DNA from: an uncultured Bacteroidia bacterium
GTDB lineage: Bacteria; Bacteroidota; Bacteroidia; Bacteroidales; F082
DNA length: 39,777 nucleotides
NCBI GenBank assembly: GCA_902770835.1
Contig: CACXUM010000045.1
Coordinates: 1 to 39,777, forward strand
Direction: 5' to 3'
Part shown: in pieces, positions 16,813 to 21,192 of the stretch
Layout: every line of letters starts with the position of its first letter
Position numbering within the stretch: the stretch's first letter is position 1
Notes under the pieces: generated by a model
The model's input: only the letters and a program-made list of their open reading frames with translations
Database searches by the model: none
What the model was told of the DNA's origin: nothing
Made by a program: the position numbers and the translations under genes

Positions 16813-16860
16813 AACAAAAAATCGCCAAAATCTTTTGCTCGTTTTGATTATTGACTAATT

Positions 16861-17490
16861 CCGCATCACGACGACTTCAATATCGTTGCCGACCAAAGTT
16901 TCACCGTTACGGGATGGGTGCGCAATGGTGATATGATTCGTTATACTTCTGAAAACCAATGCCATGACAAAAGTCGTTTGCTACATTCCGCGCCTTACGG
17001 TGCAAACCGGGAAAAGGTGACGGTTCATGTCAGTTATGACGAGGGCGAGACTTGCCCGTGAGCAAGTGCATCGTGCCTAATAGTTCGGACTATTCCTCGC
17101 TTTGTGTCCTTCCCTACGGCATCATCGACTTCTATGTGGAGGAAGCCTATGCAGCTGCTTCGGGTTATTCGACGGTGTTCTACAACTTCAGTCTCGACTG
17201 GCTCACCGATGGCGATGATACTTTTGACCCATTGGGAGTTGCTGAAAATCAATTTGAAACAGAATCTTTGAAGGTTTATCCTGTGTCTGCATCATCGTTC
17301 GTAATGATTGAAACTGAGGGAATGCAGACCGCCAACATTATTAACGCATTAGGTCAAATTGTTAAGGTCATTCAGGCCAATGGCGTTTCGGAAATTCGAT
17401 TGGATGTTTTCAGAGTGGGCTTCAGGCGTGTATTTCGTTGAGGGAGTGGATGATAAAGGAATAAGAAGAGAAGGAAAGTTTATGAAATAA
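16861..17490 (+). pseudogene. Broken sialidase (BNR-type, GH33-like) with T9SS sorting domain
   Basis: Reading three frames in succession reconstructs pieces of one secreted sialidase. Frame A from 16861 gives HHDDFNIVADQSFTVTGWVR, then, apparently across an internal deletion, SRLLHSAPYGANREKVTVHV and an Asp-box-like SYDEGET; it stops at 17059-17061. Losing one G in an expected TGG Trp codon near 17053 shifts the frame. Frame B then continues as VSKCIVPNSSDYSSLCVLP and STVFYNFSLDWLTDGDDTF, followed by a T9SS sorting domain. Near 17407 an extra T shifts it again, and frame C finishes SGVYFVEGVDDKGIRREGK and stops at 17488-17490. The N-terminal signal and much of the propeller are missing. The two indels alone could be sequencing errors, but the missing parts argue for real decay. 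Confidence 0.75.
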
Positions 17491-17515
17491 GTGGGCTTTC
17501 GGTTTCTTTGGTTTC

Positions 17516-17588
17516 CTTGAATTTTTGCAAACTTTCGGGCCTTAACGCATAAAAAAATCGACTTATGGCCCGAAAGTATGCAATTTTT
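17516..17588. repeat. Palindromic repeat, upstream flank of ATPase cassette
   Basis: This ~73-bp repeat is about 90% identical to 19085-19159. It is itself an inverted repeat: ACTTTCGGGCC (17531-17541) pairs perfectly with GGCCCGAAAGT (17567-17577), and weaker pairing continues outward through the GCA/TGC and AT-rich arms. The central part (AACGCATAAAAAAATCGACT) is identical in both copies. Confidence 0.85.
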
Positions 17589-17620
17589 GGCCGATGGTAT
17601 CACAATTATTCCTACTTTTG
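17586..17620 (+). promoter_or_regulatory. Promoter of the ATPase cassette gene
   Basis: TACTTTTG at 17613-17620 matches TAnnTTTG, 20 bp before ATG 17641. A TTTG at 17586-17589, inside the edge of the palindromic repeat, is 23 bp upstream and could be the -33 element. Confidence 0.5.
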
Positions 17621-17640
17621 CATCGGAAAAACATATTGAA

Positions 17641-19089
17641 ATGGCAAAGCGAAACGAACCTTCTTCTGATTTGCTGGTAGGGCGCAAAGACGAAATCAAG
17701 CATTTGGAGTCCATCATGGAGTCCAAGGAGGCCGAATTTGTAGTGGTCTATGGCCGCAGAAGGGTGGGAAAAACCTTCCTCGTCAATACATTTTTCAACG
17801 ACGAGTATGCTTTCAAACTGACCGGTCTTGCCAAGAAAGGCAAACGTGACCAACTGGCCAACTTCACGGCCACGCTCAACAGATACGGCGACGGACGAAA
17901 ATTCACCAAGCCGCGCACTTGGTACGAGGCTTTTGATAAACTCCGCGAGTTGCTCGAAGCGAAACGCAGCAAGACGAAGCGGGTCGTTTTTATTGACGAA
18001 CTGCCGTGGATAGACTCTCGCGGGAGCAACCTCATCTCGGCCCTTGAGCATTTCTGGAACGACTGGGCGGTCACGCAAAGGGACATCGTGCTGGTTTTGT
18101 GCGGCTCGGCCACCTCGTGGATTACGCGAAAAATCCTGAAAAACCGTGGCGGGTTGCACAATCGGGTGACGCAAAAGTTGTATATTCGTCCGTTCACCTT
18201 GGCCGAGTGTAAGGAATACATTCGCAACCGTGGCCTCGATATGGAAGAAAAGGAAATCGCTGAGTGTTATATGATTATGGGTGGCATCCCTTACTATTTG
18301 AAGAACCTCAGACGCGGTGCAAGCCTTTCGCAGAATGTAGATGAGATGTTTTTTGCCGAGAAAGGTCGACTTGACGACGAATTTGATGCGCTGTATAATT
18401 CACTGTTCGAGAAGTCGGAGAACTATATCAAGGTGGTTGAAGCCCTGAGTACAAAAAACAAAGGGCTGACGAGGGAAGAAATTTTGCAAGTGACAAAATT
18501 GGAGATGAACGGGCATTTTTCCAAAATCCTACAAGACCTCATCGATTGCGATTTTGTCCGTTGCTACAAAGGCTACGGCAACAAGACACGAATGGGAATT
18601 TATCAACTCGTTGACCCTTTCACCTTGTTTTATTACAAGTTCATCCAGAAATTCGGCCATTCCGACAAGCCGTTTTGGCAGTACCAAATCGGGACACGGC
18701 TGCACGACACTTGGGCTGGACTTGCCTTTGAGCAGTTGTGCTTGAACCATCATAGGCAAATTGAGAGAAGTCTTGGCATTTCGGGCATCCTCACGCAAGT
18801 GTATTCGTGGGCAACGCCTCCCGGTGCGGAGGAGAAGGCGCAAATCGACCTTATTATCCAGCGGGCCGACAAGGTGATTAATGTGTGCGAGATGAAGTTT
18901 TATGACGGCATTTTCAAGATGAAAGCCAAGGACTATGAGGATATGGAGCGGCGAATCAGGGCGTTTCGTGAGGCGCGCAACATCCGCAGGGCAGTCCATC
19001 CAGTTCTCGTCACGACCTACGGACTGACGCATAACAAATACAGCCATTTGTTCCAAAATGTAGTGACCTTGAAAGACCTTTTCGCTTGA
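17641..19089 (+). CDS. AAA ATPase (ATPase_2/DUF234 type) with PD-(D/E)xK-like C-terminal domain
   Basis: This 482-aa protein has an ATPase domain of the 'predominantly archaeal' type with Walker A GRRRVGKT at residues 38-45, Walker B VVFIDE at 115-120, sensor-like LCGSATSW at 153-160, and a winged-helix-like middle (about 255-330). The C-terminal DUF234-like domain carries Glu364 (LAFEQLC), Asp403 (AQIDLII) and Glu417/Lys419 (CEMKF), the spacing of a PD-(D/E)xK nuclease fold. Such proteins occur in many copies per genome in Bacteroidota and archaea, and their role is unresolved. ATG 17641 is chosen because the 21 upstream codons cover the promoter. A near-identical palindromic repeat lies on each side; the downstream copy begins within the stop region. 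No transposase is present. Confidence 0.85.
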   Translation: MAKRNEPSSDLLVGRKDEIKHLESIMESKEAEFVVVYGRRRVGKTFLVNTFFNDEYAFKLTGLAKKGKRDQLANFTATLNRYGDGRKFTKPRTWYEAFDKLRELLEAKRSKTKRVVFIDELPWIDSRGSNLISALEHFWNDWAVTQRDIVLVLCGSATSWITRKILKNRGGLHNRVTQKLYIRPFTLAECKEYIRNRGLDMEEKEIAECYMIMGGIPYYLKNLRRGASLSQNVDEMFFAEKGRLDDEFDALYNSLFEKSENYIKVVEALSTKNKGLTREEILQVTKLEMNGHFSKILQDLIDCDFVRCYKGYGNKTRMGIYQLVDPFTLFYYKFIQKFGHSDKPFWQYQIGTRLHDTWAGLAFEQLCLNHHRQIERSLGISGILTQVYSWATPPGAEEKAQIDLIIQRADKVINVCEMKFYDGIFKMKAKDYEDMERRIRAFREARNIRRAVHPVLVTTYGLTHNKYSHLFQNVVTLKDLFA

Positions 19090-19159
19090 CTTTTTTGCAC
19101 ACTTTAGGGCTATAACGCATAAAAAAATCGACTTATGGCCCGAAAGTCTGCAATTTTTT
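19085..19159. repeat. Palindromic repeat, downstream flank of ATPase cassette
   Basis: This is a direct-orientation copy of 17516-17588. It shares an exact ~34-bp core through the right arm, while the left arm has drifted (ACTTTAGGGCT), so its hairpin is weaker than in the upstream copy. It overlaps the stop codon of the ATPase gene and precedes the fusA promoter. Confidence 0.85.
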
Positions 19160-19178: not shown

Positions 19179-19208
19179 TTGCCATTTCAAAAATTTTCCC
19201 TACCTTTG
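19179..19208 (+). promoter_or_regulatory. Promoter of the EF-G gene
   Basis: TTG at 19179-19181 and TACCTTTG at 19201-19208 with a 19-bp spacer match the Bacteroidota consensus well. It lies 58 bp before the start codon. Confidence 0.65.
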
Positions 19209-19265: not shown

Positions 19266-21192
19266 ATGAGTTTAAACATTTCAAAATTGAGAAACATCGG
19301 TATCGCTGCGCATATCGATGCTGGAAAGACTACGGTTTCGGAACGCATTCTGTTCTTCACGGGCGTCAACCGTAAGGTGGGTGAAACGCATGATGGACAA
19401 GCCACCATGGACTTTATGAAACAAGAGCAGGAGCGCGGCATCACCATCCGTGGAGCCGCAATCGGAAACGGTGTGGAACCAAGCCGACAAATACCGCGTG
19501 CCGCGTATCGCTTTCGTGAACAAGATGGACCGCACGGGTGCCGACTTCCAAGAGGTGGTCAACCAAATGCATAAATACTTGGGAGCCAATGCCGTGCCAC
19601 TGCATCTCCCCATCGGAGCGGAGACTACGTTTGAGGGTATGGTTGACTTGGTGCAGATGAACTCGGTGCGCTTCATTGAGAAGGAACGCATCGTCGGTCC
19701 CATCCCGGAAAATATGATGGAGCAGGCCCAGGAAGCTCGCCGCAACCTTATTGAAAAAGTCGCCGACTTGGACGACGAAATCGCCGAACTTTACCTCGAA
19801 GACAAGGAAATCCCGACCGACAAACTGATGGCCGCCATCCGTCAGGCCACCATCAAACTGATGATGGTGCCGGTGCTTTGCGGTGCGGCCTATAAGAACA
19901 AAGGTATCCAGCTGCTTTTGGATGCCGTTGTTGACTACCTGCCTTCGCCGAAGGACTTGGGTGCCGTCATCGCGCACGACCCCGCCAACGAGGAGAAGAC
20001 CTACCAGCGCAATCCCTCTGAGAATGAGCCTTTTTCGGCCTTGGCATTCAAGCTCATCAACGACCCGTATGTGGGCCAGCAGACCTTCATCCGCATTTTC
20101 AGCGGCAAGTTAGTAAACGGAATGAGTGTGTATAATACCAACAAATTGAAGAGTGAGCGCGTGGGACGCATTTTCCGCATCAAGGCGAAGGAACGCGAGG
20201 AAATTGATGAGGCAAGTGCTGGTGAAATCGTGGCTCTCGTGGGCATGAAATATACCAAGACGGGCGACACGCTTTGCGATGAAGAACAGCCTATCTTGCT
20301 GGAATCCATTAATATACCTCCAGCGGTCATTGAGATGAAAGTGAACCTCGATGACAAGAAGAACCGCAGCAAACTGAGTGAGGCCTTGGCCAAGCTCTGC
20401 AACGAAGACCCGTCGTTCCACGCCCACTTCGACGAGGAAACCGAGGAAACCATCATCGCGGGCATGGGCGAGTTGCATTTAGAAATCATCGTCGACCGCC
20501 TGAAGGAAGAGTTCAAGGTGCCGGTCACGGTGGGTGCGCCTTCGGTGTCGTTCCGCGAGACCATCACCGCGCCTTTCGAGTGCAACTACCGCTATGTGAA
20601 GCAGACCGGTGGCAAGGGCCAGTTCGCCCATACCGTCATTCGCTTCGAGCCTAACCCGGGCGGCGGTTTCGAGTTCGTTGATATTACCAAGGGCGGCGTG
20701 ATTCCTAAGGAATACATTCCCTCGGTGCAGAAGGGTCTGGCAGCGGCCATGAACAAAGGTCCTTTCGCAGGTTATCCCGTCGTGGATGTGAAGTGCGTCC
20801 TCGTGGATGGCAGCTCACACCCCGTCGACTCCAGCGATATGGCCTTCCAACTTTGCGCCCAGATGTGCTTCAAGCAGGCCTTCATGAAAGCCAGCCCTGT
20901 GTTGCTTGAGCCTGTGATGAAGGTGGAAATCAACACGCCCGACGACTACATCGGCAATGTGACGGGCGACGTCAACAAGCGCCGTGGCCGCATCGAGGCG
21001 ATGAGACGTTTCCGTAAGGGTTCGCAGAAGTTGGATGCCTTCGTCCCGCTGATGGAGATGTTTGGCTATGCCACCGCCTTGCGCAACCTCACCTCGGGCC
21101 GCGCCAACTACTCGATGGAGTTCCACCAGTATATGCCGACCCCGAAGGACAAGCAGGAGGAGATTGTGAAGATGCGGAACGAGAAGGAGTAG
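19266..21192 (+). pseudogene. fusA: Elongation factor G gene with internal frameshifting deletion
   Basis: EF-G is the GTPase that drives translocation on the ribosome. The 5' part (19266 to about 19449) encodes G1 (AHIDAGKT) and the effector-loop G2 region (QEQERGITI). At about 19449/19450 the coding frame jumps by one, and the 3' part continues from [20 protein letters not shown] with G4 NKMD to a normal C terminus. By comparison with the family, roughly 50 residues are missing, including the G3 motif (DTPGH). Neither part can be a working EF-G. The 3' part would give 580 aa from GTG 19450. Promoter and terminator are intact and the rest shows no decay, so an assembly or sequencing error is as likely as a recent deletion. 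It stands outside a str operon, so a second EF-G is expected elsewhere. Confidence 0.85.

Follow-up and report, generated by a model that had tools for sequence, protein, structure and literature searches.

Introduction

In the REP/RAYT and IS200/IS605 systems a single gene lies between direct hairpins and hairpin and protein form a private pair, and in autoregulated winged-helix repressors and toxin-antitoxin operators a palindrome is located at the gene's own promoter. Bacteroidota promoters carry a -7 motif of the form TAnnTTTG. Aravind, Leipe, Koonin and co-workers have reportedly published on ATPases related to the one described here.

The closest described family is PDC-S27, known as an unvalidated defence candidate in the available text of PMC12988326 and PMC13356809. 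The data set of PMC12988326 holds 3503 of its genes in archaea and 4562 in bacteria, and the available part of that paper lists the family among single-gene "guilt-by-embedding" candidates, most of which are pending validation; no palindromes are described there. An expanded group of ATPase-nucleases is also found in Cardinium, where one genome encodes 25 divergent AAA-ATPase/PDDEXK_9 (DUF1703) paralogs; in the available text their Pfam families differ from those of the family studied here, and neither "palindrom" nor "inverted repeat" occurs in the main text (PMC6387759). No description of palindromes with the PDC-S27 family was found in the literature searched, which comprised sources other than subscription papers and preprints and included the available text of PMC4158269 and PMC9252829. 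The gene family is already known; its palindromes appear to be new.

Here we describe a unit in a window of 39,777 nt (the whole stretch of DNA that was analysed; GenBank assembly GCA_902770835.1, contig CACXUM010000045.1) from an uncultured Bacteroidia bacterium (Bacteroidales; F082). Like REP/RAYT and IS200/IS605, the unit is a gene between direct hairpins with private pairing, but its protein has no HUH/Y1 match and its palindrome is not spread genome-wide. As in winged-helix repressors and toxin-antitoxin operators, a palindrome lies at the promoter and is probably read by a winged helix; unlike these, the protein combines an ATPase with a nuclease, and a second, matched palindrome follows the gene. 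Its palindromes also set the unit apart from PDC-S27 as described in the available text.

Results

The window unit is a gene bracketed by two direct palindromes

The upstream palindrome occupies positions 17522 to 17588 of the forward strand, with arms of 21 nt each (17525-17545 and 17563-17583) around a 17-nt loop. The downstream palindrome (19092 to 19158, forward strand, arms of 21 nt each at 19095-19115 and 19133-19153) is direct to the left copy. The two repeats of 67 nt are 93% identical and lie 1570 bp apart; the duplicated direct palindromes of the preliminary description, which had given ~73 bp and ~90%, are thus real. Each is an inverted repeat in which both strands fold at z -3.9 to -5.0 compared with shuffles, and the 34-nt core gave two matches without mismatch and none in 100 shuffles. 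In 240 kb of the bacterium's own genome plus the window, no other matched pair of strong hairpins had a spacing of 1.2-2.4 kb; elsewhere there was one further hairpin pair, whose members are separated by 356 bp. The own genome (3.26 Mb in 76 contigs, 86% complete; labelled G000, with other G labels for relatives' genomes and L labels for single loci or units) contains the window palindrome in two places only, the remaining matches being short pieces with E values of 0.23 or worse.

Between the palindromes lies a gene for an ATPase_2-winged helix-PD-(D/E)xK nuclease protein of 482 aa (17641 to 19089, forward strand; stop codon TGA at 19087-19089). ATG 17641 is the likely start because the 503-aa open reading frame begins inside the palindrome, ahead of the box TACTTTTG (17613 to 17620, forward strand), which is located ~25-30 bp past the left palindrome. 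The downstream copy had been said to overlap the stop codon, but its core begins 2 nt past the TGA and only a looser alignment covers the stop. The unit is placed between the stop of the upstream gene and the promoter of the EF-G gene, whose box TACCTTTG (19201 to 19208, forward strand) was deduced from the sequence and from the empty site in a relative, G021. We take both boxes to be Bacteroidota-type -7 boxes by the TAnnTTTG motif.

Both neighbours had been called broken. The left gene (16858-17491), presumably T9SS-like, is indeed shortened and lacks ~1.8 kb found in several relatives such as G021; G018 aligns through with the window and also lacks this extra sequence. The EF-G gene lacks 143 bp at 19448/19449 that are present in aligned relatives including G018 and G048, which breaks the frame and reflects either a true loss or an assembly error. 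Since the loss is absent from G018 and G048, both of which carry the window unit, it is not part of the element.

The encoded protein belongs to PDC-S27

The protein matched the PADLOC profile of PDC-S27, PDLC04984, with an E value of 3.5e-195 (residues 12-481 on 4-473 of 474), and two homologues likewise matched it over the full length. It is a PDC-S27 protein and, as such, a phage-defence candidate. In Pfam it matched PF01637 but not DUF234 (PF03008) up to an E value of 10; DUF234 reached 0.15, below the cut-off, in the homologue L216, and the distant paralogs L041 and L042 do carry it. The earlier label of a DUF234-type ATPase does not hold for the window protein, and membership in ATPase_2/DUF234 (PF01637 plus PF03008) was rejected for want of the C-terminal DUF234 in the window protein. 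A transposase domain, HUH/Y1 included, was not found in Pfam, which returned only ATPase-type and weak unrelated matches; on this ground an IS200/IS605 or RAYT element was rejected as well.

The nuclease-like residues named before (18730 to 18897, forward strand) held up: E364 (18730-18732), D403 (18847-18849), E417 (18889-18891) and K419 (18895-18897) are, like the Walker residues, invariant in 64 aligned homologues. Judged by its sequence, the protein has the same architecture, an ATPase plus a predicted PD-(D/E)xK nuclease, as PDC-S27 in the available text of PMC12988326. A structure model (pLDDT 90.2, pTM 0.88) shows an order of helices and strands that, in our reading of the domains, fits an ATPase, a winged helix (~259-323) and a nuclease. 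The best Foldseek match of the model was 2qen, a walker-type ATPase of Pyrococcus abyssi whose chain (350 residues) is 132 residues shorter and presumably lacks the C-terminal nuclease domain. STAND and Orc/Cdc6 proteins came next, and the matches also included Orc1/Cdc6 in complex with origin DNA. A profile search of solved structures gave weak matches to the Tn7-like TnsC (E 6.7e-4) and to 2qen (E 0.002).

Gene and palindrome recur together

The own genome encodes 22 proteins matching the window protein at E 1e-60 or better, which agrees with the earlier view of a multi-copy family; the other 21 are 39-50% identical to it. After L037 had been left out (near a contig end), a strong hairpin was found upstream in 17 and downstream in 13 of 21 genes, 11 of which had a matched pair. 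Within one genus, the number of PDC-S27-type matches per genome ranged from 0 to at least 26.

For a broader view, the 21 own loci were pooled with 29 genus copies (the best per genome) and with 76 of 79 loci from genome contigs, leaving out the partial genes L175, L176 and L222. From these 126 loci, 122 had 200 bp on both sides, and removal of two duplicates left 120, in which close relatives are counted separately. At a strict hairpin score of at least 12 within 220 bp of the gene, a strong palindrome was present upstream in 81 and downstream in 50 of the 120 loci, where ~1.5% was expected per flank. This expectation stems from 240 kb of the own genome (12 x 20 kb from six contigs without any of the 22 genes), in which there were 16 comparable hairpins, giving ~1.5% for a flank of 220 bp, and no matched pair with a spacing of 1.2-2.4 kb. 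Matched pairs were present at 38 of the 120 loci and were direct in 36, the exceptions being L070, clearly inverted, and L026, nearly a tie. Eighteen of the 120 loci had no upstream palindrome scoring at least 10 within 220 bp, which counts against the explanation that we favour below.

DUF4143 ATPase genes of the same genome (L380-L409; 53 matches at E 1e-5, 50 of them above the family cut-off) were also examined, and the 29 of 53 tested had four upstream hairpins, six downstream hairpins and one matched pair. Three of these genes (L397, L398 and L391) have flanking direct repeats of another kind than the matched palindromes.

Each gene has a private palindrome that diverges along with its protein

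Upstream palindromes were obtained from 19 of 20 other paralogs, one having none, and used as one query against the own genome. All 49 matches were located beside the gene of origin (40 of 46 candidate regions scored, E up to 0.01). Every gene has its own palindrome sequence, which rules out one palindrome common to all ATPases; REP-style scatter is ruled out too, the window palindrome and the 19 others occurring in the own genome only beside their own genes. The expectation that further copies of the palindrome border other ATPases thus holds for related units, which do recur, but not for the window sequence itself.

Palindromes co-diverge with their proteins. Among 101 loci, the median similarity of upstream palindromes was ~0.15 below 60% protein identity and rose to 0.24 at 60-70%, 0.32 at 70-80%, 0.55 at 80-90% and 0.89 above 90%; with 100 deduplicated loci the Mantel r between palindrome and protein similarity was 0.646, reached in 0 of 1000 permutations. 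The arms also change in a compensatory manner. In 19 upstream palindromes of the window subfamily, 13 of 21 base pairs were changed on both sides, and the covariation score of the arms was higher than in any of 500 shuffles or any slid control; counting the further pair types gave a weaker result, equalled by 44 of 500 shuffles. This set leaves out the near-copies of L016 (L046, L047, L151, L152 and L177) and loci whose upstream hairpin is short, different or absent (L155, L157, L158, L160, L162 and L173). The co-variation suggests that the protein very probably recognises its cognate palindrome.

Winged helix and residue 292 track the palindrome

In the window subfamily, co-variation with the palindrome maps to the winged-helix domain (18406 to 18615, forward strand; residues 256-325). 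When the rest of the protein was held constant in this subfamily (22 loci), the winged helix gave a partial r of 0.416 (1 of 2000 permutations) and residues 281-300 reached 7 of 2000, compared with 341 of 2000 for the ATPase and 853 of 2000 for the nuclease. In a second positive cluster of six loci the whole winged helix reached 13 of 2000, and residues 281-300 alone had no signal; in two of the four clusters tested, with 8 and 12 loci, a winged-helix-specific signal was not found.

Position 292 (codon 18514-18516) lies in the first turn of the predicted recognition helix. Histidine was found there in 20 of 20 subfamily members with a GGGC-type palindrome (23 rows, one locus twice), and the three members with CAG arms have Val, Gln or Ala. 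Three of the GGGC-type rows are copies at the EF-G locus in which the left arm is mutated and the right arm keeps GGCCCG. Outside the subfamily, His292 was present in L032 and L033 only, both with GGGC arms, and GGGC or GCCC without His292 in 3 of 76 other loci. Residue 292 is therefore predicted to read the arm type, a pattern seen post hoc in cases most of which share ancestry.

The upstream palindrome is located at the predicted promoter

Among the 82 loci whose upstream palindrome is strong, 49 TAnnTTTG boxes begin 0-39 bp past it, the promoters being predicted by motif; past downstream palindromes (51 loci) no 10-bp bin held more than five boxes. With the -7 motif as generally known, the palindrome would thus sit at the gene's own promoter as in an autoregulated operator-repressor unit. 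Homologues lacking flanking repeats had been named as a point against the idea; many are paired, but many others have an upstream palindrome only; lying near the promoter, these fit an operator.

A search of 247 genomes, with the best six candidates kept for each (so that G000 gave six of its 22 and copy numbers are lower bounds), revealed the gene in ten further genomes of other Bacteroidota families with at least one to two matches each. In the 10 of 11 loci that were testable, five of them from one genus, a strong palindrome was present upstream in six and downstream in none. Homologues from plasmids, phages and viral contigs had an upstream palindrome in 8 of 15 cases, two of them nearly alike, and a downstream hairpin in 2 of 15; one with an upstream palindrome sits on a plasmid of Butyrivibrio (Bacillota). 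The homologue of Wolbachia phage WO (L425) has neither; it stands alone directly after head-module genes and resembles an inserted selfish or cargo gene. The exact pattern of the window palindrome was not found in one scan of viral contigs, which is weak evidence. Since the palindrome is present upstream in other families and on plasmids and the downstream copy is rare there, the upstream palindrome looks like the older, operator-like part, and the matched downstream copy like a trait typical of the expanded lineage.

Units are gained and lost across relatives

Empty sites, which had been predicted for close strains, were found. At the window site of G021 the unit is absent together with its palindromes and the stop of the upstream gene runs into the EF-G promoter; G030, G045 and G044 resemble this site. 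The window palindrome was found in 28 places in 19 of 99 genomes of the same genus: 14 assigned to the cognate ATPase (from fetched flanks and known pairs), 11 solo, i.e. with no ATPase in the 1.1-1.5 kb fetched per side, two as a gene-less pair (G089) and one beside a 37% identical ATPase (G016). Palindromes without an ATPase, named earlier as a point against the idea, thus do exist in relatives, while in the own genome the palindrome occurs only beside the gene.

Fourteen own units were searched in ten relatives, and ten were inspected closely. L024 is filled in G000, G018 and G084, solo in G048 and empty with both flanks in G033; in G056 the site holds unrelated sequence without palindrome, and in G022, G050, G057 and G021 a single flank was matched, with neither palindrome nor gene beside it. 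L021 is filled in G000, solo in G018, represented by two tandem palindromes in G050 and empty in G057, and also solo in G048, where the other flank is on another contig. L020 is filled in G000, G056 and G084, solo in G018, G048 and G058 and empty in G033. L025 (in G022) and L035 (in G018) are absent together with their palindromes. Of L029, a single short copy of the repeat is left in G022 and in G050; G021 lacks L033; the genes of L027 and L030 are damaged in a relative; and L023 could be matched on one side only. A unit that shares 82% identity with that of L021 (L303, G018:C49) and has related palindromes is found 1.6 kb away from the solo palindrome of L021 in the same genome.

In the reverse direction, twelve units of relatives were checked, six in detail. 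L321 and L323 are cleanly absent from G000, L321 with both boundaries at or near the palindromes and L323 with an insert that extends well beyond them. L332 is absent from G000 and G018, its right boundary lying at or near the palindrome, and G048 retains its palindromes. At this locus (G056:C6) the insertion of 3.2 kb comprises a second AAA-type ATPase of 447 aa and a PDC-S27-like gene with paired palindromes, and its boundary lies at a T run. Of L329, G000 holds an internally deleted remnant only. G000 and G048 lack the gene that G018 has at L325 but keep its palindromes, which lie there beside a distant ATPase. L328 is a swap site with the ATPase gene in G018:C44 and other genes in G000:C53 (L344, which we take to be an AlbA_2-like protein of 478 aa) and G056:C27 (L347, presumably a 403-aa relative plus a 159-aa gene).

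Target duplications varied from ~20 bp (L323) and 53 bp (L033) to 5 bp or less (L321 and L332). The closest pair among 21 own-genome paralogs shares 60% of its amino acids, and by blastn only the four EF-G loci among 24 loci of at least 66% identity share flanks, although divergence could hide shared loci. The EF-G tree groups the relatives as (G048,(G018,(G000,G056))) with supports of 0.81-0.94 and is a one-gene tree; on it, L020 and L021 are more simply read as gene gain into a solo palindrome. Matching loci of sister species thus occur in three states, filled, solo-palindrome and empty, so that the unit behaves like a cassette; gain and loss of gene and palindromes in this manner are highly probable.

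Discussion

The best overall explanation, to which we give a probability of roughly 0.6, is that the ATPase-nuclease recognises its own palindrome, which would act like an operator and, within this genus, also as a boundary for recombination. The PDC-S27 protein would consist of an Orc/STAND-like ATPase, a winged helix and a PD-(D/E)xK nuclease, and the winged helix of a dimer or higher oligomer may read both arms of its own long palindrome as duplex. The older site would be the gene's own promoter, where bound protein would limit its own expression. In this rumen Bacteroidales genus the palindrome would have been copied to the downstream side as well, and palindrome, promoter, gene and palindrome would be gained and lost as one cassette. 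Recombination between the direct palindromes, the route of loss that we infer, would delete the gene and leave a solo palindrome; it is not the sole reading because the EF-G tree favours the solo state as older at two of three loci, and homologous recombination may perhaps also insert the cassette, using a solo palindrome. ATPase switch and nuclease would act on a signal.

A self-mobilising element, whose protein would cut at the flanking palindromes (the ends of the element), excise or copy the unit and place it in new sites or, homing-like, at existing solo palindromes, is a more doubtful reading. It would account for the direct orientation of 36 of 38 matched pairs, for entire units missing from close relatives with boundaries at or near palindromes (both in L321, the right one in L332), for related units beside different DNA (in 24 loci of at least 66% identity only the four at EF-G share flanks), for the relative of L021 at another place in G018, for gene gain into solo palindromes at L020 and L021, for the range of matches within one genus and for plasmid- and phage-borne homologues, one of them next to head genes of phage WO. 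A homing endonuclease gene would interrupt its recognition site; here both palindromes are whole around the gene, and solo-palindrome alleles exist. However, the own genome has no close copies, the length of the target duplication is inconstant, the insert of L323 runs well past its palindromes, none of ten other-family homologues has a strong downstream palindrome, and Pfam contains no known transposase domain in the protein. A DDE-type or classical IS with inverted ends is ruled out by the direct pairs and by target duplications that are not of fixed length. From the preliminary idea that the protein acts on its palindromes and spreads the unit, recognition emerges as very probable from co-variation, whereas self-spreading stays a hypothesis: no two paralogs of the own genome exceed 60% identity, the target duplications differ in length and the downstream palindrome is missing from many copies. 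The term "non-autonomous" would not apply if the movement were due to the encoded protein itself. An active part of the protein in movement is accordingly questionable, and it is unlikely that the unit is a single-gene mobile element in which an Orc/TnsC-like ATPase-winged helix-nuclease acts on its own palindromes, enters or is rescued at solo cognates and has its targets set by a winged-helix code.

An ordinary defence gene, a PDC-S27 nuclease silenced by its own operator, with the downstream palindrome and the gain and loss as by-products of recombination in hypervariable spots, is a real possibility that falls short of even odds. The full-length PDC-S27 match, the listing of the family among defence candidates, the operator-like position of the palindrome and the other gene types at the L328 site in G000 and G056 agree with it, but it leaves unexplained the matched and nearly always direct second palindrome on many copies of this lineage; the defence role of the family is at candidate level in the available text of PMC12988326, and the empty viral-contig scan for the exact palindrome weighs little against it. 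It is very improbable that the hairpins have nothing to do with the protein and are just intrinsic terminators or REP-like repeats. They do form stable RNA hairpins with T/A runs alongside, but 16 comparable hairpins per 240 kb stand against 81 of 120 upstream flanks, the sequences are private to each gene and track the protein, and the DUF4143 ATPase genes of the same genome rarely have hairpins (four upstream and six downstream of 29). Plain terminators are ruled out by this background rarity, by the tracking of the protein and by the covariation of the arms.

The private palindrome of each gene and the candidate reading residue turn an ATPase-nuclease without recognised substrate into a protein with a predicted DNA site. 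If the single-gene-element reading were true, dozens of mutually non-interfering units would co-exist in one genome, and if the protein also uses the palindromes as boundaries, the few enzymes that are able to move DNA would include a PD-(D/E)xK-ATPase fusion.
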